From Halococcoides cellulosivorans (lineage in GTDB: Archaea > Halobacteriota > Halobacteria > Halobacteriales > Haloarculaceae), in assembly GCF_003058365.1 (NCBI RefSeq), contig NZ_CP028858.1, forward strand, positions 2,592,836 through 2,656,835: 64,000 nt of DNA, in the 5' to 3' direction. Of the stretch, positions 21,336 to 47,216 are shown piece by piece (within the stretch, counting starts at the first letter, position 1; every line of letters starts with the position of its first letter). The position numbers and the translations under genes are program-made. The notes below the pieces were generated by a model. That model did not search any database. It was not told where the DNA came from and was given only the letters and a program-made list of their open reading frames with translations.

Positions 21336-22025
21336 TTATCGCCCATCGAAATCACCCAGTCCCGACTGTTCGTGGTCCTCGGGCTCAATCACCTGGGGCG
21401 AATCGTTGCTCGGGTCGTTCACCCGTCTCGAGATCGGATACGCGTCGAGGTCGTCCTCTGGATAGGGCTGGCAAAGATCCAGACGCTCATCGGGCCCGGC
21501 GGAGAGCCAGCGTTCGGTTGACCCCTGGGGGAGGACCACCGGCATCCGGTCGTGGATCGGTTTCATCAGGTCGTTCGGCTCCGTCGTGAGGATCGTCACG
21601 CAGGAGAGCGTCTCGCCGTCTCCCGTCCACTCGTCGTAAATCCCGGCCATCGCGAACGCCGGCGCGTCCTCGCGATAGATCCGGTACGGCTGTTTCGGCC
21701 CACCGTTTGCCGCCTGCCACTCGTAGAAGCCCGAGGAGAGGACCAGACAGGGTCGCGACGCCCACGCGTCTTGGAACACGCGCTTCTCGTCGACGGTCTC
21801 TGATCGAGCATTGATGATCCCATCGCTGGGGTCGTCCGCCCACGGCGGGACCAGTCCCCAGTGGAAGCGGTCGATCTCGTCCGGGGCCTCGGTGGTGATG
21901 ACCTCGAGATCGTCCCCAGGGGCGATGTTGTATCGAGGTTTGTAGCCGCCGTCGGCGACGAGCGTGGCGTCGAAGGTGGCCTCCAGGTCGGCTTGATCGA
22001 CGAACAGCGAGTTCCGGCCGCACAT
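21336..22025 (-). CDS. SRAP (HMCES/YedK) abasic-site response protein
   Basis: 229 residues starting MCGRNSLF. Cys2, the residue that forms the DNA-protein crosslink with abasic sites, follows the initiator Met, which fixes the start at 22025. Other SRAP signatures are present: PRYNIAPGD, WGLVPPWADDP, INARSETV, and the active-site LSSGFYEWQ with Glu and HDRMPVVLP with His. The family protects abasic sites in single-stranded DNA. In mobile elements it often travels with replication and repair genes. Confidence 0.92.
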   Translation of the reverse strand: MCGRNSLFVDQADLEATFDATLVADGGYKPRYNIAPGDDLEVITTEAPDEIDRFHWGLVPPWADDPSDGIINARSETVDEKRVFQDAWASRPCLVLSSGFYEWQAANGGPKQPYRIYREDAPAFAMAGIYDEWTGDGETLSCVTILTTEPNDLMKPIHDRMPVVLPQGSTERWLSAGPDERLDLCQPYPEDDLDAYPISRRVNDPSNDSPQVIEPEDHEQSGLGDFDGR

Positions 22026-22066
22026 GCACGTCTGTTCGCGAGGAACGGCCTTCAACCGTGGGGTGA

Positions 22067-27171: not shown

Positions 27172-27385
27172 ACTACGAAGTACGCGGTACAGGGTGAAAA
27201 ATTGTCCCCTCATGTGTGAACACGTGGGGAAGCAGGTGAACGAGATCGGAGTGGTCGAGACCTGGTACCAAGAGAACCCCTTCGGCCAGCGAGTGATTGT
27301 AACGTTTTCTAGAATATATTACACCACCATTGTCCTGAAAATCAGAGTATTTCTCTTGTAACTTCGACAGCTAAGTGTGTCCGGC

Positions 27386-28276
27386 ATGGAGCAACGAAAC
27401 TGGGACTCCACTCTTGCAGGCATCGAAGGGGATCTGACCGTAACAGTTGGAAATTATCTCGATGGGGTCTCCAGTGCTGCTCCGGCTACCACCTACTGGT
27501 CGCAGAAATCTCAGCTGTCGTCTTTCTATGAATGGTATAACGACACGTCATTCGATATTGTGACTCATGAGCATGATATCGTTGCTCGCTTCGTTCAGCA
27601 TCTGTTTGTCGAATCGGAGTGGTCAGCTGAAACGGCTCGGAGCTATATCTCAACCCTCACGAACGTACTCGCCTACCACTGCGAGTGTGATCCGGAGATT
27701 TTGACGCACGAAATCGCATCGGTGCTCTGTGCATCATCTGTGCCGACCATTCGGAAATTGGGTGATCAGATCGTCGACGTCGACACGACCGATCCAAAGG
27801 GTATCGCGTGGACGAAGGTCCCCCATGTCCTTGCCTTTCTCCGCCAGCGTCAGTTCGGCACTCGAACACACCTCTTTGTCGAGATTCTACTCGATACGAA
27901 AGGCCGGCCCGAGCAGGTCAGACAGATCGACCTCGGTGATATCGACTACGAGGCCCAACGGGTCGTCGTCGGTGTTCCGGAGACACACCTGGTGAGCTCG
28001 TCCGGACTCCTCACTGACCGTGTCGCCAACCTGTCTACGACGACGCTCGATGCTCTCGAGACGTATACCGAGTACGAACGTAACGAGCCTGAGTATTCCT
28101 GCGGAGGAGATCCACTGTTCACGACCCACAATGGCCGTGCCAGTTCCGGGACCCTGCGTCGCTCGATCAAAATCGCGAGTACAAACGCTTCCCCAGAATC
28201 GGCTGACGAATCAGGACCAGTTCTTCCAAACGACATCTGGCAGTACGCGATGTCCGAGATCCTCAACCAACAATGA
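27386..28276 (+). CDS. Tyrosine recombinase-like protein lacking the C-terminal catalytic box
   Basis: 296 residues from ATG 27386. The N-terminal SAM-like core-binding region is clear (SFYEWYND, RFVQHLFVESEWSAETARSYI), then a recombinase-type fold with the Arg-I equivalent in DTKGRPEQVRQIDLGDI and a truncated end after PNDIWQYAMSEILNQQ. HxxR and the nucleophile Tyr are not present. It overlaps the next recombinase gene by 4 bp (ATGA), suggesting the two work as a pair, with this one as an accessory or regulatory subunit. Confidence 0.7.
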   Translation: MEQRNWDSTLAGIEGDLTVTVGNYLDGVSSAAPATTYWSQKSQLSSFYEWYNDTSFDIVTHEHDIVARFVQHLFVESEWSAETARSYISTLTNVLAYHCECDPEILTHEIASVLCASSVPTIRKLGDQIVDVDTTDPKGIAWTKVPHVLAFLRQRQFGTRTHLFVEILLDTKGRPEQVRQIDLGDIDYEAQRVVVGVPETHLVSSSGLLTDRVANLSTTTLDALETYTEYERNEPEYSCGGDPLFTTHNGRASSGTLRRSIKIASTNASPESADESGPVLPNDIWQYAMSEILNQQ

Positions 28277-29400
28277 CAGATTCAATGGCTGACGTCCTCG
28301 CAGACGTCGACGATCCAGAAACGATCGAAAAAGTACTCGCATTGTCCCAGAGCGACGACTCTGCCGAGAGTCTCACTGATCCATCCGGGGGACCAGCGCT
28401 TTGCGACCTCTATGACCGATACCTCGCTCGGAGGCGCGATCGGAGCCCCTCAACACGAGCCCAGTATCGCCGGACCATTCCGGACTTCGTCGGGTTTGCC
28501 GAAGACGACGGTGTGACCACACCGGCTGGTATATCGACCACGCTGGTTGACGCGTACGTCGACGAACTCCAGGAGCGATACGATACCGACGCGACGATTC
28601 TCACCTACACGAAAAACGTCCGGAGTTGGCTGCGATGGCTCAACAGGCGCGACCACTGCGATGATGCCGTCTGCCGGATTCTCGATAAGGACGAGCTCGG
28701 ACTCACTCCGCGGGCACGAGACGAGGCCCTCCCGACGGATGAGGCTGCGGCCATCCTCGGGAAACTGCATCAGCGCCGTCGTGGGTCGATGAAGCACGCG
28801 CTCCTGGAACTCCTCTGGAACACCGGATTACGTCTCGGAGGCGTCCACTCGCTCGACGTTCGGGACTTCGATCCTGCCAATAGCGAAGTCTGTCTGAGAC
28901 ATCGTCCCGAGAGCGGGACGCGGTTGAAGAACGGGAGCGAGGACGAACACACGGCAGGCGACGGCGAGCGAAACGTCGAACTCAGCGATCGGGTTGTCAC
29001 GGCCATCGATTCGTATCTCGATCACGAGCGTCCAGCCGTCACGGACGATTACGGTCGCGACCCACTTTTCGCGACGACGCACGGCCGCGCGACGCGATCG
29101 ACACTTCGCCGACGAGTCTACGAGGCGACGAGCTGCCGCTGGGCACCCGAGAGCTCGGACGACCGATCATGCGACGGGAGTTGCGATCCTGATTCGGAAG
29201 TCTGCGAGTATTCGTACTACCCGCATGCGATCCGTCGCGGTGCGATCGTCCGACACCTCAGCGGTGGCCTCCAACCGGCGATCGCGAGTGAGCGGTTCGA
29301 TGTCTCGATCGAAACGATCCGGAAACACTACGATCCGCGGACGAAGCGGAAGCGGAAGGAAGACCGATCAGCTGCAGTCAGGACTGCCTGGGAGGGTTGA
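28273..29400 (+). CDS. Tyrosine recombinase (integrase)
   Basis: 375 residues. The core-binding domain covers about 45-150; the catalytic domain has Arg-I in LWNTGLRLGGVHSL, the second box YPHAIRRGAIVRHL (HxxR), and the Tyr nucleophile in HYDPR near residue 355. A Cys-containing stretch (CDGSCDPDSEVC) before the HxxR box could bind a metal. All catalytic residues look present. Coupled to the upstream partial recombinase by a 4-bp overlap. Attachment sites were not identified. Confidence 0.83.
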   Translation: MTDSMADVLADVDDPETIEKVLALSQSDDSAESLTDPSGGPALCDLYDRYLARRRDRSPSTRAQYRRTIPDFVGFAEDDGVTTPAGISTTLVDAYVDELQERYDTDATILTYTKNVRSWLRWLNRRDHCDDAVCRILDKDELGLTPRARDEALPTDEAAAILGKLHQRRRGSMKHALLELLWNTGLRLGGVHSLDVRDFDPANSEVCLRHRPESGTRLKNGSEDEHTAGDGERNVELSDRVVTAIDSYLDHERPAVTDDYGRDPLFATTHGRATRSTLRRRVYEATSCRWAPESSDDRSCDGSCDPDSEVCEYSYYPHAIRRGAIVRHLSGGLQPAIASERFDVSIETIRKHYDPRTKRKRKEDRSAAVRTAWEG

Positions 29401-30985: not shown

Positions 30986-31214
30986 ACACACCGTCTTCTT
31001 CGCCCCGTTCCGGTCGAAAATCCGCTTGTCTCGTTCTTCGACGCCGTCACACTATGCCGTGATCGATCTGATCTAAGTTCCGGAACCATTCCGGAAACGC
31101 GGTGAAGCCGGCTGATCGGCCTTCCCAGACACCCGATATGTGGCCCTAGTCCCCTTCTGGAAATTCGGAAAGTCCCCGATTGACGGTTTGTGGCTGGTCG
31201 GGCTATCTCAGTCT

Positions 31215-32153
31215 ATGCCAAACTCCGAGTCCGTTCGAGAGCTCGATCACGGGAGCATTGACGGCGCCACGACCACCGGCGATCGCCGCTGGCCAGGGCC
31301 GAATCGCGACGATCTCCTCGGCCAGCGAGCACGGCAACGATCGTCCGGTGAGATCGACGACGCGGCCGTCGCGACCGCCGACGCCGGCCTCACCCTGCCG
31401 GAGTTTCCGAGTCTCGAGGACGACTGTTATCTGCTCGATCCCGACGCCCAGTCCCCACGCTCGCGACGGACGGCGACGATTGGGACACTTCACGCGCTCG
31501 CGCTCGACACCGCGCTTTCGGCCGGCGGCGACGTGGTCTGGATCGACGCGCAGGGCCACGCCACGACCCACGCGTTCGCGCAGGTGGTCCCGTCCGAACG
31601 GGCGCTCGACCGCGTCCACATCGCACGGGCATTCACGACCCACCAGCACGTCACGCTCGTCGATCAACTCGGCCGGTGGCTGCGCGACGACCCGACGTCT
31701 CCGTTCGGCGGGCCCGCGACCGACCGCCCGGCGGTGGTCGTCGCGCCGGCGCTGGACGCGCTGTATCGCGGCGGCGACCTCCGGAACGATGACGCGCAGG
31801 CGTTGCTCCTGCGGTCGCTCGCGACGCTACGGGCCATCTCACGCGATCACAACCTACCAGTCATCCTCACGCGGGCGCGGCCTGACGGTGTCGCCACGGC
31901 GCTCGAGACGGCCGCCACAACGATAGCCCTCGAGGAGACACGGTTCGGGCCCCGATTCGAGTGTGAGGAGCTCGATTTCGAGACGCTGGTCTACGATGTC
32001 GGCGACGGGATCCAGCAGACGACGATCACCTACTGGGCGGAGATCCTGGCCGCCCGCCACCCATCGGTCGCGACCGGCGCGTCTTCGCCGGCGCCGTCCA
32101 GCGTGGGGCGGTCGGGTTCGTCGACGATCGCCGGCCTGGGAGACGCGAGGTGA
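31215..32153 (+). CDS. RadA/RecA-like protein without a Walker A motif
   Basis: 312 residues from ATG 31215. The core follows the RadA fold: GGDVVWIDAQGHATTHAFAQV (Walker-A-following strand and helix of RadA), then HIARAFTTHQHVTLVDQL, then PAVVVAPALDALYR...RSLATLRAISRDHNLPVIL, matching the RadA Walker B to L2 region. The expected GxxGxGKT loop is replaced by SPRSRRTATIGTLHAL, so ATP hydrolysis is unlikely. It is upstream of a small gene and PolB. A RecA-like non-ATPase next to a DNA polymerase recalls bacterial ImuA-type mutasome genes; the parallel is inference. Confidence 0.75.
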   Translation: MPNSESVRELDHGSIDGATTTGDRRWPGPNRDDLLGQRARQRSSGEIDDAAVATADAGLTLPEFPSLEDDCYLLDPDAQSPRSRRTATIGTLHALALDTALSAGGDVVWIDAQGHATTHAFAQVVPSERALDRVHIARAFTTHQHVTLVDQLGRWLRDDPTSPFGGPATDRPAVVVAPALDALYRGGDLRNDDAQALLLRSLATLRAISRDHNLPVILTRARPDGVATALETAATTIALEETRFGPRFECEELDFETLVYDVGDGIQQTTITYWAEILAARHPSVATGASSPAPSSVGRSGSSTIAGLGDAR

Positions 32154-32158
32154 TCGCG

Positions 32159-32446
32159 ATGGGTCGGACGAACCCTACCTTCTGGGACGTGCTCCGGTCG
32201 GTTGAGGACCGGTGGAAGCCGTTTCGGCGGACGCTCCGTCACGAGGACCAGGAGCGGTTCGACCGCCTCCTCGAACACGCCCACACCCACGCCGACGCGG
32301 CGGGAAACCTCAACCATCAGTCCCCGATGGTGCCGATCCTCGTCGCGATCGCGATCGGCCAGGAACGCCGGATCGACGAGCTCGAACAGCGCCTCGGTGA
32401 CTCGGACGGCAAAGCACCGGATCGTCGCGACGAACCCCCGGGGTGA
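32159..32446 (+). CDS. Small helical protein between RadA-like and PolB genes
   Basis: 95 residues from ATG 32159 (GTG 32150 overlaps the upstream stop). It is an all-helical acidic protein (FWDVLRSVEDRWKPFRRTLR, LEHAHTHADAAGNL, IAIGQERRIDELEQRLG). No family recognised. Its constant place between a RadA-like and a PolB gene suggests a linker or polymerase-access factor. Confidence 0.65.
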   Translation: MGRTNPTFWDVLRSVEDRWKPFRRTLRHEDQERFDRLLEHAHTHADAAGNLNHQSPMVPILVAIAIGQERRIDELEQRLGDSDGKAPDRRDEPPG

Positions 32447-32535
32447 GAGGTAGGATGATGGCCATCGCGACCGGCGATCACGGCAGAGTATGGCGCTCGC
32501 CAGCCAAGACGACGGAAACGCGGGGTCACTGAGCC

Positions 32536-34755
32536 GTGGTCTTCACGATCGATTTCCTCGACGACGGTGCGCCGCTGGTGTGGTCCCTCGAAGGGACCAG
32601 CGAGACCCCCGGTTGGTCGGCGACGCGGGCGGCTGACTACACGCCGACGCTGTTCGCCGTCGCTGCGCGGGGGATGCAGGAGGCCGACCCCGACCGGCAG
32701 GCCTGCGTCGACGAGCTCGACGAGATGCGCGCTGACCTCGAGATGCATCCCGCCGTCGGGGACCTCTCGGTCGCGTGGAAGCGCCCGGGGTTCCGCTTCG
32801 CCGATCAGCCCGTCCTCCGGATCGATGTCGATCGGACGTCGTCGGTCCGAGAGATCGCACGGTTCGTCGAAAATCGAGGCCCGCCGGGGCGAGTCCCGTT
32901 CCGGGCGTTCAACGTCGACTTCTCCCCGGAGTTCCGGTACTGCCTCGAAACGGGGACCGATCCGGCGCCGTCGCGACGGCCGCAACGACTCCGGCTGGAT
33001 CTCCCCCGGACGGCTGCGGCGGACGGGGACCTCACCGCCCTCGAGGTCAGCGTCGTCGACGGCGATGGCGACGGTTGGGGCGAGATCGACGCGACCGACA
33101 CCGTTGGCGTCCTGGAAGAGCTCGAACGCCGCCTACGCGTGGTTGATCCGGACATCCTCTCGGTCGAGCGGAGTGCGATCGTCCCGATGGTCGCCGACGC
33201 CGCCGACGAGTACGGCATCGATCTCGGCCTTCCGCGTGTACCCGCCGGCGTCTCCGACGCACAGGTCCCGGACTACCAACAACTCGCCGGCGAGTCCACG
33301 TTCGAGTCCTACGGCCGGCGACTGCACTCGCCGGCGCGATACAACGTCCCCGGCCGGGTCGTGATCGACCGGTCGAACACGTTCTTCCTCGAAGAGACCA
33401 ACCTCGCCGGCGCGCTCGATCTCGTCGAACGCTCGGGGAAGCCACTCCAGGAACTCGCGTGGGCGTCGATCGGGAACGTCCTCACGGCGATCCAGATCCG
33501 CGAGGCGACCCGTCGCGACGTGCTCGTCCAGTGGCGTGCGTGGCGGCCAGAGCGGTTCAAGACTGCCGGGACCCTCCACGACGCCGACCGGGGCGGGACG
33601 ACGCTCTCGCCGGTCGTGGGCGTCCACGACGACGTCCACGAACTCGACTTCGCGTCGATGTATCCGAACATCATCTGCCAGCACAACCTCTCGCCCGAGA
33701 CTGTCCGGTGTCGGTGCCACGATCGTGATGACGTCCCCGACCTGGACTACGCGGTCTGCGATCGCGACGGCTACCTGCCCGACGTGCTCCAGCCGATCAT
33801 CGACGATCGGGCTGGGATCAAAGACCGACTGGCGAGTGAGGACCTCGACGCCGAGGAGCGCCGCGCCCTCGAGGGCCAGTCGGACGCGCTGAAGTGGATC
33901 CTCGTCTCGTGTTTCGGCTACCAGGGGTTCAGCAACGCGAAGTTCGGTCGGATCGAAGTTCACGAGGCGATCAACGCCTATGCACGGGACATCCTCCTGA
34001 CCGCGAAAGAGCGACTCGAGGCCGGCGGCTGGACGGTGTTGCACGGTATCGTCGATTCGATCTGGGTGACCGCTCGCGACGGCGCCGACCAGCGCCCACT
34101 CGATGAGCTCGCGACAGAGATCAGCGAGGCGGTCGGCATCGCCCTCGAGTACGAGAGCGCGTTCGACTGGGTAGGGTTTTGCCCACGTCGCGACGGGCGC
34201 GGCGGGGCGTTGACGCGCTACTTCGGGCGGCGTCGCGACGCCGACGACGATCCGTACAAGCTCCGGGGGATCGAGTGTCGGCAGCGATCGACGCCGGCGT
34301 GGATCGCCGAGGTCCAACGGGAGTTGATCGATGTCTTCGACGAGACGCGGAACCCCGAGGCCGTGGTCGCCACCCTGGAAGATCGTCTCGCCGTCCTGGA
34401 GGCCGGCGACGTCGACGCGACGGACCTGCTCGTCCGGACCCGGGCGTCGAAGTCCCTCGAGGCGTACTCCCAGCGAACGCGGACGGTCGCTGCGCTCGAA
34501 CGGGCGGAGCAGCTGGGCCTCGAGTTCGCCCCGGGCGAGGACATCGTCTTCATGGTCCAAGACGACGAGAAGGACAGCGTCGATCGAGTGCGACTCGCGC
34601 CAGAAGTGGACGACAAGACGGCATACGATCCGGACTACTATCGGTCGGAAGCGGTGAGGGCTGCGGCGAGCGTACTCGGACCGACTGGGTGGGGCGAGGA
34701 CCGCCTCCTCGACGAACTTCTCGGGCAGCGATCCGCAGCAGTCGGAGAGTATTGA
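32536..34755 (+). CDS. Family-B DNA polymerase (plasmid/PolB2-like)
   Basis: 739 residues from GTG 32536, near the lower end of the family. Polymerase motif A is HELDFASMYPNIICQHNL, motif B KWILVSCFGYQGFSNAKFG, motif C LHGIVDSIWV, where the second Asp of YGDTDS is kept as VDS. The N-terminal region should carry the 3'-5' exonuclease fold, but Exo motifs are not clear, so proofreading may be missing. A divergent motif C and no clear Exo sites suggest a specialised or translesion role. It is the third gene of the RadA-like/small protein/PolB unit. Confidence 0.85.
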   Translation: MVFTIDFLDDGAPLVWSLEGTSETPGWSATRAADYTPTLFAVAARGMQEADPDRQACVDELDEMRADLEMHPAVGDLSVAWKRPGFRFADQPVLRIDVDRTSSVREIARFVENRGPPGRVPFRAFNVDFSPEFRYCLETGTDPAPSRRPQRLRLDLPRTAAADGDLTALEVSVVDGDGDGWGEIDATDTVGVLEELERRLRVVDPDILSVERSAIVPMVADAADEYGIDLGLPRVPAGVSDAQVPDYQQLAGESTFESYGRRLHSPARYNVPGRVVIDRSNTFFLEETNLAGALDLVERSGKPLQELAWASIGNVLTAIQIREATRRDVLVQWRAWRPERFKTAGTLHDADRGGTTLSPVVGVHDDVHELDFASMYPNIICQHNLSPETVRCRCHDRDDVPDLDYAVCDRDGYLPDVLQPIIDDRAGIKDRLASEDLDAEERRALEGQSDALKWILVSCFGYQGFSNAKFGRIEVHEAINAYARDILLTAKERLEAGGWTVLHGIVDSIWVTARDGADQRPLDELATEISEAVGIALEYESAFDWVGFCPRRDGRGGALTRYFGRRRDADDDPYKLRGIECRQRSTPAWIAEVQRELIDVFDETRNPEAVVATLEDRLAVLEAGDVDATDLLVRTRASKSLEAYSQRTRTVAALERAEQLGLEFAPGEDIVFMVQDDEKDSVDRVRLAPEVDDKTAYDPDYYRSEAVRAAASVLGPTGWGEDRLLDELLGQRSAAVGEY

Positions 34756-37487: not shown

Positions 37488-37559
37488 TGCGCGAGGAGAG
37501 ATTCGAACTCTCGGCTCGGCCCGCTATGCCGCGTGGTGGCCAGGCTCCACTACTCGCGC
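37488..37559 (-). tRNA. tRNA-like gene, apparent anticodon AGC
   Basis: Acceptor stem GCGCGAG/CTCGCGC with discriminator A, D-arm GTGG/CCAC and T-arm GAGAG-TTCGAAT-CTCTC are good. The anticodon stem is CGGC/GCCG with a loop ATAGCGG giving AGC (Ala). A34 is unusual for archaea, so it may be a degenerate or regulatory tRNA mimic. It lies between Ro60 and the 93-aa gene. Confidence 0.6.
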
Positions 37560-37578: not shown

Positions 37579-39108
37579 TTAGACCGGTTCGAACGCCTCG
37601 ATCTCGTCGATTACCTGGAGAGGGTCCTCGGCGTGCTCGATGAACTCGAGGACGTTCTCGGACCACCCCGAGACGTTGTAGACCCCCTCGTAGCCCTCTG
37701 GAGTGACGAGGTCGCCGTACGACGCCAGGTCGATCATGTAGAGGGAGACATCGGGGGCGATGGTATCGCGATAGGCCTCGAAGGCCTCCCGGACCGTCCG
37801 GGCGTCGTCGGGAACTCTCCAGCGCGAATCCCAGATCTGCATGTCAGTGAACAGCACGACGCGATCGACGGCGATCGCCTCTTCGCGGAGGTACTCCAGG
37901 ACCTTCCAGCCATTAGTCGAGTTACCGACTTCGCGGTCGATGCCGAGGAGTGCGTCCTGTCGCTGGAGCACCGGCGTGTCGACGTGAGTCGATACGTCCT
38001 GAAAGTCGTCGCCAAAGCCACCGACGCGAGCGCCCTGGTCGGCCAATACCGCGCCGAACAACGCGCCGATCTCTTTGTACCGGATCGCACTCTGCTCGGA
38101 GAGGACCGTATCCATCGACCCCGAGAGGTCGACACCGACGAACGTGTCACCCAGGCCCTCGGGAACGCTCTCGACGGAGACGTCGACGGCCCACTCGAGC
38201 CAGCGCTCGACTGCGGGTGCGTCGATCCCGGCGTCCTGCAACGCTTTGTACGCCTGGTAGTACCGGAACGGGTAGAGCGGCGCGTGGCGCACCGCCTCGA
38301 GATCGAGGTACTCGACGATGGTCGCCTCCTCGACGCCAGCCTCGAGCATGTTCCGGAGGTTCCGGATCGATGCGAAGATCGGCAGCGAGTATGCGTCGTC
38401 TTCGATCAGCGTCTCCCACGCGTCTCGCGTGTTCCCGCGCTCGGAGATCACCGTCTCCCAGGTCTTGGGCGTGGGCAGTGGCTCGACGTCGGGATAGTCG
38501 TCCAGATCCCCGCGCATGAATCGCTCGAAGAGGACCTCCTGGTCGTCGTCGACGGGCGTCGGGTGGACGCGGTTGAACACGTCCCGGAGCGTCACTTCGC
38601 GTCGCGAGAGCTCGTACTTCTCGAGCGTGTACGCGTCGGCCATGTCGACGAGCGCGTCTTCGATCCCACGTCGGAGCGGCCAGGGTGCCGTCCCGCCGAA
38701 CAGATCGTCGTGGATCGCCAGCGCCGTCGCCGTCTCGTCCATCCGCTGGATGATCTGGGGCGCCCACTCGCGGATCAGCGACTCGTCGGTGTCGTCTTTA
38801 AACCGGTCGTCGTTGGCCGCGAGGACGAGCAGGACCTGGGGAACGTCCCGCAGATACAGCTCCTGCCGAGCATACGCGGCGAGCTTCAGGACGAACTCTG
38901 GATCCTCGTCCGCCGCCGCGTCGAAGCGCTGGACGATGGCCGCGAGGTGCTCCTCGTCGTCCTCGTAGTAGGAGTCCTCGAGCAGCTGGTTGATCGTGCG
39001 CTTGTACAGGGCGAGTCGTGGGTCGGCGGGGTCGAACGCTTCCCCACCTTCGTTGTTGGTGGTCCGCGTCGCCTCCGCGACCGTCTGTGTGGTGTCGTTG
39101 AACTGCAT
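37579..39108 (-). CDS. rsr: Ro60/TROVE protein with VWA domain
   Basis: 509 residues from ATG 39108 (MQFNDTTQTV). The HEAT-like TROVE region (about 30-340: LALYKRTINQLLEDSYYED, FVLKLAAYARQELYLRDVPQVLLVLAA) ends in a VWA domain with an intact MIDAS FVGVDLSGSMD near 350 and a later DxxD (LFTDMQIWDS). Ro60 homologues bind Y RNAs and the 3' ends of misfolded RNA and, in bacteria, work with PNPase. Archaeal members are rare. Five Y-like RNAs lie immediately upstream on the same strand, which supports the assignment. Confidence 0.92.
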   Translation of the reverse strand: MQFNDTTQTVAEATRTTNNEGGEAFDPADPRLALYKRTINQLLEDSYYEDDEEHLAAIVQRFDAAADEDPEFVLKLAAYARQELYLRDVPQVLLVLAANDDRFKDDTDESLIREWAPQIIQRMDETATALAIHDDLFGGTAPWPLRRGIEDALVDMADAYTLEKYELSRREVTLRDVFNRVHPTPVDDDQEVLFERFMRGDLDDYPDVEPLPTPKTWETVISERGNTRDAWETLIEDDAYSLPIFASIRNLRNMLEAGVEEATIVEYLDLEAVRHAPLYPFRYYQAYKALQDAGIDAPAVERWLEWAVDVSVESVPEGLGDTFVGVDLSGSMDTVLSEQSAIRYKEIGALFGAVLADQGARVGGFGDDFQDVSTHVDTPVLQRQDALLGIDREVGNSTNGWKVLEYLREEAIAVDRVVLFTDMQIWDSRWRVPDDARTVREAFEAYRDTIAPDVSLYMIDLASYGDLVTPEGYEGVYNVSGWSENVLEFIEHAEDPLQVIDEIEAFEPV

Positions 39109-39171
39109 GCTATCACCGGAGCCGCAATGGGCGACCCCGAACAGTGCCACTCGCGGGGTGCGAGTGGTCCA

Positions 39172-39300
39172 CGTCCCCGGCACGATTCGAACGTGCCACA
39201 CTCGGCTTCGAAGGCCGGTGTCCTCGTGAGGGCCGAAAGCCCGAACGAGGGCTCGTCAGAGCTTGCTCTGACGGTGCTCTCCAGACTGAGCTACGGGGAC
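39172..39300 (-). tRNA. tRNA-Arg(TCG) with 56-nt insertion
   Basis: Acceptor GTCCCCG/CGGGGAC, D-arm GCTC/GAGC, anticodon loop CTTCGAA (TCG, Arg) and T-arm GCACG-TTCGAAT-CGTGC. A 56-nt segment (about 39220-39275) sits between the D-stem and the anticodon stem, flanked by an ACC direct repeat; it folds into two hairpins. Removing it restores a normal cloverleaf with one C-A pair in the anticodon stem. It lies between the Y-like RNAs and Ro60. Confidence 0.75.
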
Positions 39301-42180: not shown

Positions 42181-42286
42181 CTGTGATTCCTCGAATTGTG
42201 TCGTCATTGCACCGTTCGGATCGGCCATCCAGCGCCAGGGGATGGAGTGTCCGTTCGATATTCACCGACGGTGAGGCGATTCATAA

Positions 42287-42362
42287 TGCTCCCGAAGGGA
42301 ATCGAACCCTCGACCTCTGCCTTGAAAGGGCAGCGTCCCTCGCCAACGGAGACTCCAGGAGC
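42287..42362 (-). tRNA. tRNA-Glu(TTC)
   Basis: Acceptor GCTCCTG/CGGGAGC, discriminator A, anticodon stem CTGCC/GGCAG with loop CTTTCAA (TTC), and T-arm GAGGG-TTCGATT-CCCTT. The D-arm GTCTC/GAGGGAC is atypical for haloarchaeal Glu and is shared with tRNA-Gln at 44939. Confidence 0.82.
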
Positions 42363-42366
42363 ACAG

Positions 42367-42440
42367 AGTCGCGGGTCGGATTCGAACCGACGATACTCCA
42401 CTCTGCAGGCGGACGCGTTCGACCACTCTGCCACCGCGAC
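42367..42440 (-). tRNA. tRNA-Cys(GCA)
   Basis: Acceptor GTCGCGG/CCGCGAC, discriminator T (typical of Cys), anticodon loop CTGCAGA (GCA), and T-arm GTCGG-TTCGAAT-CCGAC. A complete cloverleaf without insertion. Confidence 0.85.
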
Positions 42441-42445
42441 CTGAT

Positions 42446-42519
42446 GGACACCCCCGGGATTCGAACCCGGAGCTTCTCCCGTGCCACGGGAGCACTCTGC
42501 CAGATTGAGCTAGGGGCCC
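42446..42519 (-). tRNA. tRNA-Ala(GGC), mismatched acceptor
   Basis: D-arm, anticodon stem CTCCC/GGGAG with loop GTGGCAC (GGC) and T-arm CCGGG-TTCGAAT-CCCGG are normal, but the acceptor strands GGGCCCC and GGGTGTC do not pair at positions 3 and 4. The Ala(TGC) gene at 43231 has the same defect. Confidence 0.7.
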
Positions 42520-42527
42520 CGCGAAAA

Positions 42528-42601
42528 CGCCGGGACGAGGACTCGAACCTCGCACAGCTCGGGTAACAGCCGAGCTCCCGCACCAGGCGGGACTTCCCGG
42601 C
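42528..42601 (-). tRNA. tRNA-Asn(GTT)
   Basis: Acceptor GCCGGGA/TCCCGGC, discriminator G, extended D-stem TCCCGC/GCGGGA, anticodon loop CTGTTAC (GTT), and T-arm CGAGG-TTCGAGT-CCTCG. Confidence 0.83.
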
Positions 42602-42604
42602 AGA

Positions 42605-42679
42605 AGGGCCGGGCGGGGCTCGAACCCGCGTCGAACAGTCGATTAAAAGTCGACCACTTAGCCGCTAAGTTACCGGCCC
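42605..42679 (-). tRNA. tRNA-Lys(TTT)
   Basis: Acceptor GGGCCGG/CCGGCCC, D-arm ACTTA/TAAGT, anticodon stem GTCGA/TCGAC with loop CTTTTAA (TTT), T-arm GCGGG-TTCGAGC-CCCGC, and discriminator T. Confidence 0.84.
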
Positions 42680-42683
42680 GGAG

Positions 42684-42756
42684 TGCTCCAGCCCGGATTT
42701 GAACCGGGGGCCCGGCCTCGAGAGGGCCGTGAGTTTGGCCACTACTCCACTGGAGC
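42684..42756 (-). tRNA. tRNA-Glu(CTC)
   Basis: Acceptor GCTCCAG/CTGGAGC, discriminator A, anticodon stem CGGCC/GGCCG with loop CTCTCGA (CTC), and T-arm CCCGG-TTCAAAT-CCGGG. A perfect cloverleaf. Confidence 0.87.
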
Positions 42757-42814
42757 AAAGATGAATGCCCAATGAGGGCACCACATGCCAGCCGACGCAC
42801 GCGCGTGCGTCGAG

Positions 42815-42940
42815 TCTCCCCGACACGACTGAGCGAAGCCGACAGCTTCGCGAGGGTCGGAAGACGCGAGCGTCTTCCGGAATTCGAACGTGCGTCTCCT
42901 CCTCTACAGGGAGACGTCGTCGCCGCTTGACCACGGGGAG
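42815..42940 (-). tRNA. tRNA-Tyr(GTA) with 54-nt T-arm insertion
   Basis: Acceptor CTCCCCG/CGGGGAG with discriminator A, anticodon loop CTGTAGA (GTA), and T-stem GCACG/CGTGT. A 54-nt segment (42828-42881) sits exactly between the T-loop TTCGAAT and the 3' T-stem strand. It holds two hairpins: GGAAGACG/CGTCTTCC and GCGAAGC/GCTTCGC. Excision would give a normal tRNA. Confidence 0.78.
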
Positions 42941-42983
42941 ATGGGCCGATGCGTCAACTCCCCACCGGCGACCGGGGGAAACC

Positions 42984-43108
42984 GTGGGAGCGGGAGTGTT
43001 TGGCCGGCAGATTGCTCTGCCGGCTTACACCGAGGCATTTCACCCTCGGAACAGCGGGCTCTCGCCCGTCGGCCCGTGTGGATTGGTGGAACGAAGTATC
43101 GCTCCCAC
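42984..43108. ncRNA. Structured element closed by a 9-bp stem, three hairpins
   Basis: GTGGGAGCG (42984-42992) pairs with CGCTCCCAC (43100-43108). Inside are three hairpins: GCCGGCAG/CTGCCGGC, CCGAGG/CCTCGG and CGGGC/GCCCG. It is cloverleaf-sized but has no T-arm or anticodon arm. It could be a non-coding RNA of the array; the strand is unknown. Confidence 0.5.
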
Positions 43109-43148
43109 TCGACCCAGTTCGTCTGTGAAGAGTTTGATCGGCGGGGAT

Positions 43149-43226
43149 GCACCGACCGATGTCAGCCGTCTCCGGTCCTGACGCCAGATTGGCGGCTGGT
43201 TGTGACTCCAGCGCATCGGTCGGTGC
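43149..43226. ncRNA. Structured element closed by a 13-bp perfect stem
   Basis: GCACCGACCGATG (43149-43161) is exactly complementary to 43214-43226, enclosing 52 nt with smaller hairpins (GTCAG/CTGAC, GCC/GGC). Possibly a processed RNA or a decayed tRNA-like gene. Confidence 0.5.
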
Positions 43227-43230
43227 GAGT

Positions 43231-43304
43231 GGACGCCCCCGGGAGTCGAACCCGGAGCCTCTCGCTTGCAAAGCGAGCGCTCTGCCAGATTGAGCTAAGG
43301 GCCA
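43231..43304 (-). tRNA. tRNA-Ala(TGC), mismatched acceptor
   Basis: D-arm identical to Ala(GGC), anticodon stem CTCGC/GCGAG with loop TTTGCAA (TGC), and T-arm CCGGG-TTCGACT-CCCGG. The acceptor strands TGGCCCT and GGGCGTC pair poorly beyond the three inner pairs, although GTGG and CCAC lie on the outer ends and could pair with a bulge. Confidence 0.7.
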
Positions 43305-43307
43305 CAA

Positions 43308-43382
43308 TCGCGGGACCACGATTCGAACGTGGGTCTGCTGGATGTGAGCCAGCCGGGATCGGCCAGACTACCCAATCCCGCG
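43308..43382 (-). tRNA. tRNA-Val(CAC)
   Basis: Acceptor CGCGGGA/TCCCGCG, discriminator A, D-arm GGGT/ATCC, anticodon stem GCTGG/CCAGC with loop CTCACAT (CAC), and T-arm CCACG-TTCGAAT-CGTGG. Confidence 0.83.
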
Positions 43383-43386
43383 AGAG

Positions 43387-43469
43387 TGTCGCCGCCAGGA
43401 TTCGAACCTGGGTAGGACCTTCGCCAGCGGTCCTGAGCCGCTTCCCGTTGACCGCTTGGGTACGGCGAC
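43387..43469 (-). tRNA. tRNA-Leu(CAG)
   Basis: Class II tRNA: acceptor GTCGCCG/CGGCGAC, anticodon loop CTCAGGA (CAG), long variable arm, T-arm CCAGG-TTCGAAT-CCTGG, and discriminator A. Confidence 0.87.
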
Positions 43470-43500
43470 AAGCGCAAAATCATTCGCCAGCAGCGCGCTG

Positions 43501-43618
43501 GCATGCCACCGGAAGACTCGATCGCTCACGGCAGAGCCGTTCGCTCGTGTCGTGGTCCTCACATTCGTTCGAACCACGCAGCGCTCGTCTTCCGAGGCGT
43601 GCCTCGCTTTCGCTCGGC
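43501..43618. repeat. Palindrome-rich spacer between tRNA genes
   Basis: GCATGCC at both ends and GGAAGAC (near 43511) opposite GTCTTCC (near 43587) frame a T-arm-like GGTTCGAACGAATG stretch on the minus strand. It contains no tRNA. It is made of the same GGAAGAC/GTCTTCC palindrome that occurs inside the tRNA insertions. Confidence 0.55.
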
Positions 43619-43619
43619 A

Positions 43620-43701
43620 TGCCGCCACCAGGATTCGAACCTGGGAAGGACTCACCACACGGCCCTCAACCGTGTCCCTTTGGCCACTCGGGCATGGCGG
43701 C
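43620..43701 (-). tRNA. tRNA-Leu(GAG)
   Basis: Acceptor GCCGCCA/TGGCGGC, anticodon stem ACGG/CCGT with loop TTGAGGG (GAG), long variable arm, T-arm CCAGG-TTCGAAT-CCTGG, and discriminator A. Confidence 0.85.
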
Positions 43702-43704
43702 GCA

Positions 43705-43786
43705 TTCCGCGGGGAGGATTCGAACCTCCGAAGGTCTATCCGGCGGGTCTTAAGCCCGCTGCCGTCGACCACTTGGCTACCGCGGA
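43705..43786 (-). tRNA. tRNA-Leu(TAA)
   Basis: Acceptor TCCGCGG/CCGCGGA, anticodon stem GCGGG/CCCGC with loop CTTAAGA (TAA), long variable arm, and T-arm GGAGG-TTCGAAT-CCTCC. It abuts the next gene without a gap. Confidence 0.86.
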
Positions 43787-43917
43787 TGAGCACGGGCTGA
43801 ATCGAACCAGAGGAAGACTCGCTCCGCTCGTCTTCCAGGGCTCGAAAACCGCCGGACGGTTTTCGAACAGCCGTCTCCCGCCTGAAGGCGGGCGTCTTGC
43901 CATTGGACCACGTACCC
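43787..43917 (-). tRNA. tRNA with apparent TCA anticodon and T-loop insertion
   Basis: Acceptor GGGTACG/CGTGCTC, D-arm GTC/GAC in a Gly/Pro-like GGTCCAATGGCAAGAC, and T-stem GGCTG/CAGCC. The anticodon arm CCCGC-CTTCAG-GCGGG has a six-base loop reading TCA (UGA codon). The T-loop contains about 61 extra nt with two hairpins (CGAAAACCG/CGGTTTTCG and GGAAGAC/GTCTTCC) and a duplicated TTCGA. Suppressor function is possible but unproven. Confidence 0.6.
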
Positions 43918-43926
43918 AGCTGAGAA

Positions 43927-44012
43927 CGCCGAGGGAGTGATTCGAACACTCGTGGCCTCGCAGCCGTCGCCTCTCGAGGGCGATCCCTTGACCAGGCTCG
44001 GGGAACCTCGGC
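43927..44012 (-). tRNA. tRNA-Ser(CGA)
   Basis: Acceptor GCCGAGG/CCTCGGC, discriminator G, anticodon stem TCGCC/GGCGA with loop CTCGAGA (CGA), long variable arm, and T-arm GAGTG-TTCGAAT-CACTC. Confidence 0.86.
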
Positions 44013-44018
44013 AGATCA

Positions 44019-44104
44019 CGGCGGGAGGGCGATTTGAACGCCCGTGTCCTCGTGGACACCGTGGTTCCAGCACGGTCCCTTGGCCAGGCTAGGGAAATCC
44101 CGCC
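44019..44104 (-). tRNA. tRNA-Ser(GGA)
   Basis: Acceptor GGCGGGA/TCCCGCC, discriminator G, anticodon stem CCGTG/CACGG with loop CTGGAAC (GGA), variable arm GTCC/GGAC, and T-arm GGGCG-TTCAAAT-CGCCC. Confidence 0.87.
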
Positions 44105-44107
44105 GAA

Positions 44108-44239
44108 CGGTGAGACGGAGAGTCGAACGCCGCGAATCAGAGATTCGCAAGCCCGCGGCTCCGATCGGAGCCGCGGACTCCGAAGCCTAGCGGCTCTCGA
44201 TTTCAAATCGAGTGCAGTCACCTGTCTGCCTGTCTCACC
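44108..44239 (-). tRNA. tRNA-Ser(TGA) with 50-nt T-arm insertion
   Basis: Acceptor GGTGAGA/TCTCACC, discriminator G, D-stem GCAG/CTGC, anticodon stem CTCGA/TCGAG with loop TTTGAAA (TGA), and T-stem CGGAG/CTCCG. A 50-nt segment (44128-44177) separates the 5' T-stem strand from the T-loop. It folds into a 12-bp perfect hairpin around GGCTCCGATCGGAGCC and a GCGAATC/GATTCGC hairpin. Confidence 0.76.
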
Positions 44240-44357
44240 ACACCGGAAGACTCACTCCGCTCGCGGGTCGTTCCTCCCCGCTCGCAATCGAGGGCTTCCT
44301 CCGGTCGCCCTCGCATCGTTCGTCTTCCGAGCCCCGCTTCGCTTTCGCTCAGCGGGA

Positions 44358-44444
44358 CGCCACGACTCGGATTCGAACCGAGAGACCGGCACTCACCGGC
44401 CACGGCGTAGCAGGCCGTTGGGTTCACCGGTACCCAGTCGCGGC
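44358..44444 (-). tRNA. tRNA-Ser(GCT)
   Basis: Acceptor GCCGCGA/TCGTGGC, discriminator G, anticodon stem ACGGC/GCCGT with loop CTGCTAC (GCT), variable arm GCCGG/CCGGT, and T-arm CTCGG-TTCGAAT-CCGAG. The 44243-44357 spacer before it carries the GGAAGAC/GTCTTCC palindrome but no tRNA. Confidence 0.86.
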
Positions 44445-44449
44445 ACAAT

Positions 44450-44575
44450 TGGGTCGATGAGGGTCCCGTGAGCAAAGCGAACGGGACGCCGAAAGAGCGC
44501 CGCGCTCTTTCGGAAATTCGAACCTCGGTCTCGTGCACCCAAGGCACGGATCTTCGACCACGAGACCATCGACCC
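44450..44575 (-). tRNA. tRNA-Pro(TGG) with 53-nt T-arm insertion
   Basis: Acceptor GGGTCGA/TCGACCC, anticodon stem CGTGC/GCACG with loop CTTGGGT (TGG), and T-stem CGAGG/CCTCA. A 53-nt segment (44463-44515) follows the T-loop TTCGAAT, as in tRNA-Tyr, with hairpins CCGAAAGAGCGC/GCGCTCTTTCGG and GTCCCGT/ACGGGAC. Confidence 0.76.
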
Positions 44576-44854
44576 AAAGGATGGTTGTATGTCTATACGT
44601 CTGCGCACGCGACGGGGACGGAACGACTGTTCGCTACCGTCTCCCGTCGCGTTGGGGCGTGCTTCGACCGTCGGAGCGGTCGGGAATGCCGCATCGGTCC
44701 ATGCAGGTTGCAGACCCTTCCGGGCCCAGCCCGCCGGTCTGAACGTACCGGCGAGAGTGCCTGCCTCGATGGGCATCCCCAGCGTGGATTGACCACGCAG
44801 CCACGCCGTCAGAGACCAGCTCTGACGAGCCCAGCCTCGATCGGCTCGGCTGGA
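44576..44854. other. Array spacer with hairpins, no tRNA found
   Basis: Several short hairpins are visible (GCGACGGG/CCCGTCGC near 44609-44650, CCGCCGGT/ACCGGCG near 44731-44752, CGTGG/CCACG near 44785). No anticodon arm plus T-arm combination was found. Confidence 0.45.
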
Positions 44855-44928
44855 CGCCGACGCCGGGATTCGAACCCAGGTCACGACCGTGACAGGGTCG
44901 CATGCTAGCCGGACTACACCACGTCGGC
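44855..44928 (-). tRNA. tRNA-Asp(GTC)
   Basis: Acceptor GCCGACG/CGTCGGC, discriminator G, anticodon stem CGACC/GGTCG with loop CTGTCAC (GTC), and T-arm CTGGG-TTCGAAT-CCCGG. Confidence 0.86.
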
Positions 44929-46711: not shown

Positions 46712-47216
46712 TTAGTACCTGACCTGCAGACCTGCGAAGTGCTTGTTTTCACAATCAAGAGTGACAGGGCGGTGCCAGACTCCGATAGCGGCGGTCCTGA
46801 GTCGATCCCTCGCCCGCGACCGGTTGTACCACACCATCTTCGTGAGATACCTTCGGACGGTTCGATCGGATTTCGGGTTCGCGACGCGAGACCAGTACTC
46901 CGTATTCAGATCACTCGGTGCGACCGATTCGTGCTCTTCGATCATCTCGTCGATCACACGCTGATGGTCCGACAGCGCATCCAAATTCTTCTGGTGGAGT
47001 TCCTCGTGGGCGTCCGGAACGGACTGTGACGTGGTCGGTAGCGATCTACTCGGCGTTATCCCGATCGGCCTGTCGCGCGGCGAGTTTGAGCGGCGCGACC
47101 GCGACGCGGGTGTCGCCGCCGGCCTCGTCGGCGATCAGTTCGATTTCCGACTGCAAAATCGCGTCGTGGGTGAGTACCCGTTCGGCCGCTCGCGGAGGAT
47201 TCACGAAACTCCGTAT
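46712..47216 (-). pseudogene. orc1/cdc6 C-terminal fragment
   Basis: The minus strand encodes EIELIADEAGGDTRVAVAPLKLAARQADRDNAE, the sensor-2/lid helix region of haloarchaeal Orc1/Cdc6, then an in-frame TAG, a frameshift, and PDAHEELHQKNLDALSDHQRV...EYWSRVANPKSDRTVRRYLTKMVWYN, the winged-helix DNA-binding end. The AAA+ core is missing. It is a decayed replication initiator and abuts the regulator at 47201. Confidence 0.65.

Follow-up and report, generated by a model that had tools for sequence, protein, structure and literature searches.

A three-gene block in the genome of Halococcoides cellulosivorans, lying at positions 31215-34755 (+ strand) of the 64,000-nucleotide (nt) stretch of contig NZ_CP028858.1 that was analysed here and is called the window, is best explained as the operon of a PolB2 mutasome that would be inducible by DNA damage through a promoter element linked to Orc/Cdc6 genes, a reading to which we assign a probability of about 0.8. 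The genes run head to tail in the order iRadA, PPB2 and PolB2, with gaps of 5 nt (iRadA/PPB2) and 89 nt (PPB2/PolB2), and encode a RadA-like protein, a small protein and a family B DNA polymerase. We base this reading on the gene content of the block, the catalytic residues lost from its products, its co-conservation among haloarchaea, a conserved promoter element and the identity of the genes that this element precedes, all of which were obtained here.

The original prediction, made from the DNA sequence alone, had likened the combination of a specialised polymerase and a RecA-like non-ATPase to the bacterial mutasomes and proposed an archaeal analogue. That idea was right in kind but not new, since a mutasome of this type was already known and the haloarchaeal operon is one more example of it. 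The operon was described by Makarova 2014 (PMC4104785), and a PolB2-iRadA-PPB2(3) complex was modelled in silico and likened to Pol V (UmuC, UmuD'2, RecA), rather than to ImuA/ImuB/DnaE2, by Timinskas 2025 (PMC11791011); between them, the two papers cover the operon, its inactive RadA and the likeness to a mutasome. What the present analysis adds is a concrete, testable control element, and this promoter element with its Orc link is the part worth following.

Protein components of the operon

The first gene (31215-32153, + strand) encodes a protein that, by profile, alignment and predicted fold, has the RadA fold but lacks both the ATPase site and the RadA N-terminal domain. As a single sequence it gave weak matches to Pfam, NCBIfam and PDB (E 0.0002-0.55), and a profile built from 31 haloarchaeal homologues matched solved RadA/Rad51 with E 1.6e-12. 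The predicted core is a RadA/Rad51 fold (Z 18.1, root-mean-square deviation (rmsd) 2.8-3.1, 176-187 residues aligned); residues 14-59 of the model have a predicted local distance difference test score (pLDDT) under 50. Alignment with the genome's own RadA (C1:1687595) places TATIGTLHA opposite the Walker A loop GEFGAGKSQ, the position of the lost loop being SRRTATIGTLHA (31461-31496, + strand), replaces the Walker B Asp by Ala, and leaves the N-terminal helical domain of RadA without a counterpart. The claim that the protein keeps the RadA core without its ATP loop is thus borne out, and by these losses the protein is identifiable as the published iRadA. Some members of this mutasome group carry a PCNA-binding motif in iRadA or PolB2; no QxxLxxFF was seen at the C-terminus of this iRadA. 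An alternative in-frame start, GTG 31140, lies upstream of the proximal promoter element described below; ATG 31215 is favoured because of that element and its exact spacing.

The second gene (32159-32446, + strand) opens as a frame at GTG 32150, and its ATG at 32159 gives a protein of 95 residues beginning MGRTNPT. Its size, close to that of a family of ~90 residues, and its MGRT arm identify it, at the level of sequence, as PPB2 (arCOG07300). Across an alignment of 33 PPB2 sequences that includes one of a Leptospira phage, MGR does not vary and T4 is more than 90% conserved. The window protein has Arg3; its residue 9 is Trp, a place taken by Arg in 31 of the 33 sequences. In the published model Arg9 likely has a role in DNA contact, and S. 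islandicus has Thr9 (PMC11791011); Arg9 is therefore not strictly required.

The third gene (32536-34755, + strand) encodes a family B polymerase of 739 residues that matches the NCBIfam PolB subfamily NF004418 with 1070 bits, and its AlphaFold model (pLDDT 86) has the PolB fold (Z 27.3, rmsd 3.8, 654 residues aligned). Motif A, DFASMYP (33646-33666, + strand), retains the catalytic D371. Motif C (34042-34059, + strand) reads HGIVDS in all 33 aligned haloarchaeal PolB2 sequences, as against YGDTDS in haloarchaeal PolB3, so that the first Asp is replaced, the second (D507) is retained and His503 is invariant; HxxxD is a signature of PolB2 (PMC8764526). Compared with PolB3, the ExoI DIE and ExoII NxxxFD residues are absent, a comparison that covers ExoI and ExoII, the Exo III pattern being unmatched in the PolB3 reference itself. 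The divergent motif C and the lack of obvious exonuclease motifs, both remarked on in the original prediction, were accordingly recovered by alignment.

These same losses, of the first motif C Asp and of the exonuclease residues, favour a rival reading in which the complex is a regulator or a fork-handling factor and PolB2 is catalytically dead, an inactivation that early papers inferred. We consider this unlikely, because D371 and D507 are retained in 33 of 33 sequences, and because Sulfolobus PolB2 (Dpo2), which has the same HxxxD, is a robust polymerase without proofreading that extends mismatches (PMC8764526) and is damage-induced and required for targeted, damage-induced mutagenesis (PMC8764526, PMC7390963).

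Two further regions of PolB2 bear on how the mutasome would be assembled. Residues S254-R279 (33295-33372, + strand; STFESYGR...HSPARY...PGRVVIDR, with the D(K/R) motif within it) belong to the best conserved parts of the protein, T255, S258-G260, H264-R268 and P272-R274 being invariant in 33 sequences, and fall mostly on gaps in PolB3. Residues 253-264 are unstructured in the monomer model (pLDDT about 41). Conservation of a segment that is partly unstructured on its own fits the published model, in which the segment with the D(K/R) motif binds iRadA and PPB2 (PMC11791011), and we regard it as the predicted binding region for both. At the C-terminus, VGEY (34741-34752, + strand) stands where PolB3 has QTGLGQY; position 736 is L/I/V in 33 of 33 sequences and position 739 F/Y in 31 of 33, with the neighbouring columns variable, and VGEY may be the remnant of a minimal PCNA box of the form [LIV]xx[FY].

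Taken against the PolB2-iRadA-PPB2 mutasome of PMC11791011 and PMC4104785, the block shares the three families and their order, the losses of the Walker motifs, of the first motif C Asp and of the exonuclease, the MGRT arm, the D(K/R) segment and, in relatives, the orc linkage. The window copy differs in Trp9 of PPB2, in having no full PCNA box and in the presence of a second triad in the genome, and the YGGAA promoter element is added here.

Conservation and distribution of the triad

PPB2 and PolB2 occur together in 91 of 145 haloarchaeal genomes and are both missing from 46, and one protein occurs alone in 4 and 4 (Fisher p 2.9e-28, not corrected for phylogeny); the search for the same block in other haloarchaea, proposed as a check in the original prediction, thus found it to be co-conserved. 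The pairwise distance matrices of the three proteins correlate with r 0.89-0.96, values reached in 0 of 2000 permutations. Four PolB2 loci at first seemed to be without partners, two of which regained them with longer flanks that took in inserted genes, leaving iRadA and PPB2 nearby in all but two of 34 PolB2 loci, one at a contig end and one without partners within 8 kb. The nearest named relative, Halorhabdus amylolytica, has a PolB2 that is 81% identical, and dN/dS against a Halorhabdus relative is about 0.14-0.16, which indicates purifying selection on the block. Such selection together with conservation across haloarchaea argues that the block is not a product of chance.

Many haloarchaea have several copies, often plasmid-borne and some of them broken. 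A second, complete triad is also present in H. cellulosivorans itself, near 2214759-2217756 of its genome, with a PolB2 that is 47-51% identical to the window copy. Genes for DUF7342, DUF6884, helix-turn-helix (HTH) and TROVE proteins were considered as further members of the block and rejected, since close relatives lack them beside the triad.

Outside the haloarchaea, the Leptospira phage KF114878.1 has the whole triad (L039:2565-5638), with an iRadA-like protein (E 5.5e-7), a PPB2 with MGRT (E 8.8e-13) and PolB2 (E 1e-115), the first two being annotated as hypothetical; three further Leptospira phage records match the polymerase.

A promoter element shared with Orc/Cdc6 genes

Comparison of the regions upstream of iRadA revealed an element composed of a direct repeat, YGGAA-N3/4-YGGAA, followed after about 13-16 nt by GCTTA and, 26 nt further on, by the ATG. 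The repeat occurs on the operon strand in 23 of 36 dereplicated loci and on the other strand in none, and shuffles contain a mean of 0.27 and a maximum of 2; because the pattern was written after these sequences had been viewed, the 23 of 36 is a descriptive figure. A genome-wide scan is the stronger test of the element. The strict pattern CGGAA-N3/4-YGGAA-N13/17-GCTTA occurs 44 times in the 145 genomes, against 16 occurrences of the reversed pattern. Mutasome genes (iRadA, PolB2, or in three cases PPB2 without detectable iRadA) follow 24 of the 44 sites and an Orc/Cdc6 paralogue follows 13, of which 12 are 48-81% identical to L004:2304-3314 in locus L004 of a Halorhabdus relative and one is of another Orc type; the remaining 7 have nothing recognisable downstream. 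The three PPB2-only sites were assigned by profile search and one iRadA site by the triad known there. Some of the scanned genomes had also served for discovery of the pattern, but the Orc sites had not. Of 79 site instances, counted with overlaps between loci left in, 44 have the ATG exactly 26 nt past GCTTA, which is the spacing of a leaderless promoter. In the literature searched, the coverage of which is incomplete, no description of the YGGAA element was found, and as far as that search goes the element is new.

In the window, the copy of the element is the proximal direct repeat TGGAAATTCGGAA (31158-31170, + strand), which lies 57 nt before the iRadA ATG at 31215; the spacing of 57 nt is identical in L004 and in Haloarcula marismortui, in the latter of which the start is annotated. 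The relaxed repeat alone occurs six times in the window, and identification of this copy therefore rests on position and conservation. The narrower pattern YGGAAN4YGGAAAC has no match in the H. cellulosivorans genome.

A second candidate regulatory site lies further upstream, a distal tandem palindrome of the form TTCCGGAA-CCA-TTCCGGAA (31078-31096, + strand) for which shuffles of the window give an expectation of 0 and which, searched as TCCGGAAN5CCGGAA, is the only copy in the 2.72 Mb genome. Three Halorhabdus-clade loci have a counterpart, CCGGAACCGACCCGGAA, ahead of this operon; in L004 and most of the remaining triads no such palindrome was found. We rejected it as the operator since its range does not go beyond the window and a few Halorhabdus-clade loci, whereas the proximal repeat is widely conserved.

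Several variants of the arrangement were seen. Copies of the element stand directly before PolB2 on Haloarcula marismortui pNG600 (L163:4920) and Halobacterium pNRC200 (L162:4940); on pNRC200 an IS200/IS605-type gene lies just upstream of PolB2, neighbouring iRadA and PPB2 are not annotated, and the divergent orc4 promoter reads AGGAACGTCGGAAACG, a near variant of the element. Three loci (L108, L110 and L113) have the element and PPB2 without detectable iRadA or PolB2, two of them with an Orc gene on the other side; these are possibly the extra two-gene operon of Makarova 2014, with a strongly diverged partner.

In haloarchaea polB2 often adjoins orc/cdc6 genes, and the linkage of a haloarchaeal orc gene to polB2 has been noted and called of unknown function (PMC1906834). 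The shared promoter box gives this linkage a testable mechanism. The non-initiator Orc1-2 of Sulfolobus controls its own promoter as well as damage genes through ANTTTC, and the corresponding feature, one promoter box before both an Orc paralogue and the polB2 operon, is seen here across haloarchaea, which suggests that the Orc paralogue regulates both itself and the mutasome. The likeness to Sulfolobus Dpo2 and the Orc1-2/DDRE system extends to a PolB2 of the same group with HxxxD at motif C, an operon-linked Orc-family protein, and a short box at both the regulator's own promoter and its target. The boxes themselves differ: the haloarchaeal candidate Orc site repeats YGGAA in direct orientation (YGGAA-N3/4-YGGAA) and keeps a constant distance to a TATA-like box. 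Read on the other strand the half-site is TTCCR or TTTCCR, and its TTTC core fits ANTTTC in part of the sites only. By analogy, the Orc paralogue is thus the putative binder and regulator of the element, and we place at even odds the wider proposal of a haloarchaeal damage regulon in which an initiator-derived Orc/Cdc6 paralogue controls its own gene and the PolB2 mutasome via tandem YGGAA at leaderless promoters.

The proximity of orc genes also lends itself to another explanation, in which replication is the task of the operon, whether for a plasmid, an integrated element or an alternative origin, and YGGAA is an origin-recognition box beside orc. PolB2 is indeed common on haloarchaeal plasmids, 89 plasmid records covering at least 80% of it, and it is frequently found close to orc/cdc6 genes. 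GGAAAC is, moreover, part of archaeal origin boxes. We nevertheless consider a replicative role improbable. The element occurs on one strand only, keeps a fixed promoter spacing to the start codon, and on the Halobacterium and Haloarcula plasmids also directly precedes PolB2 itself. The host contig is a single one of 2.72 Mb with 99.97% completeness, and the triad is therefore chromosomal; because the same chromosome encodes PolD and PolB3, PolB2 is not the sole replicase, so that the possibility of a sole plasmid replicase, raised in the original prediction, does not hold here. Consistent with this, polB2 and orc4 are dispensable in Halobacterium, where polB1 and polD are essential (PMC1906834).

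Proposed mechanism

As a damage-inducible mutasome, the operon would work as follows. Going by the published modelling, the products most likely form a complex of a single PolB2, a single iRadA and a trimer of PPB2, which would extend primers past DNA lesions without proofreading, conferring damage tolerance at the cost of mutations. Synthesis by PolB2 would rely on one catalytic Asp each in motifs A and C, with the exonuclease residues gone. iRadA, no longer ATP-binding, would be a docking subunit held by a PolB2 segment resembling those of RadA oligomerisation, and the short C-terminal [LIV]xx[FY] of PolB2 may touch PCNA. Transcription probably starts from the leaderless promoter preceded by repeated YGGAA half-sites, and we propose that the linked Orc/Cdc6 paralogue switches the operon on in response to damage and also acts on its own gene, in the manner of Sulfolobus Orc1-2. 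That the polymerase is active, is induced by damage and is mutagenic is carried over from Sulfolobus and would apply to this organism by analogy.

Several observations weigh against this account. The window promoter is degenerate, with CGGTTTG in place of GCTTA, and the replacement of the conserved Arg9 of PPB2 by Trp likewise points to a degenerate copy. A complete PolB2 lacks partners within 8 kb at locus L048, and several haloarchaeal PolB2 copies are interrupted or truncated. The best Orc homologue in the H. cellulosivorans genome is 43% identical and adjoins the second triad, at a distance of about 400 kb from the window copy; no element of the searched form was found ahead of it. The likeness between YGGAA(A) and ANTTTC is limited to the GAAA/TTTC core. 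Finally, searches of the literature found no data on function or expression in H. cellulosivorans, none on a haloarchaeal PolB2 following damage to DNA, and no report that an Orc protein binds the element or that damage brings about induction.

As for its bacterial counterparts, Pol V (UmuD'2C-RecA) and ImuA-ImuB-DnaE2 likewise unite a specialised error-prone polymerase with a RecA-family subunit and are damage-induced, but their polymerases are of the Y or C families, and the RecA of Pol V is an active ATPase. The original analogy with ImuA stood insofar as a mutasome-like complex, in which a specialised polymerase works with a RecA-family protein that is no ATPase, is the best supported explanation of the block, and failed as to the ImuA system itself: a literal archaeal homologue of ImuA-ImuB-DnaE2, which that shared pairing might suggest, can be dismissed as highly improbable, since the polymerase is of family B with no DnaE or ImuB family match, iRadA is RadA/Rad51-like, the third protein is of the PPB2 family, and the block contains no ImuB or DnaE2 gene. 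The haloarchaeal system is mutasome-like in its working and built from other families.

Genomic surroundings of the operon

Two adjoining tyrosine-recombinase genes (window 27377-29400) lie ~2 kb upstream of the triad, and their pairing suggests a mobile or recombined region. In the Halorhabdus relative, a gene for an SOS response associated peptidase (SRAP; L004:676-1401) precedes iRadA by ~3 kb, and its homologue in the window (21348-22055, - strand; 79% identical) precedes the triad by ~9 kb. On the downstream side, at about 12 kb from the triad, are stop-interrupted and apparently decayed fragments of an Orc/Cdc6-like gene (46811-47183, - strand). The window also contains a predicted tRNA-Ala gene with anticodon AGC (37488-37559) that adjoins a TROVE/Ro60-like gene (37579-39201), and an array of 15 tRNA genes (42286-44928, - strand), with only 3% of the array region matching any phage record (Halogranum tailed virus 1).

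Implications

Halobacterium salinarum offers a tractable system in which to test the mechanism that the shared box suggests, as polB2 and orc4 knockouts have been obtained and a copy of the box stands before polB2. If true, a regulon of the kind proposed here would be a euryarchaeal counterpart of Sulfolobus Orc1-2 and would be equivalent in function to the SOS system by which bacteria control Pol V.

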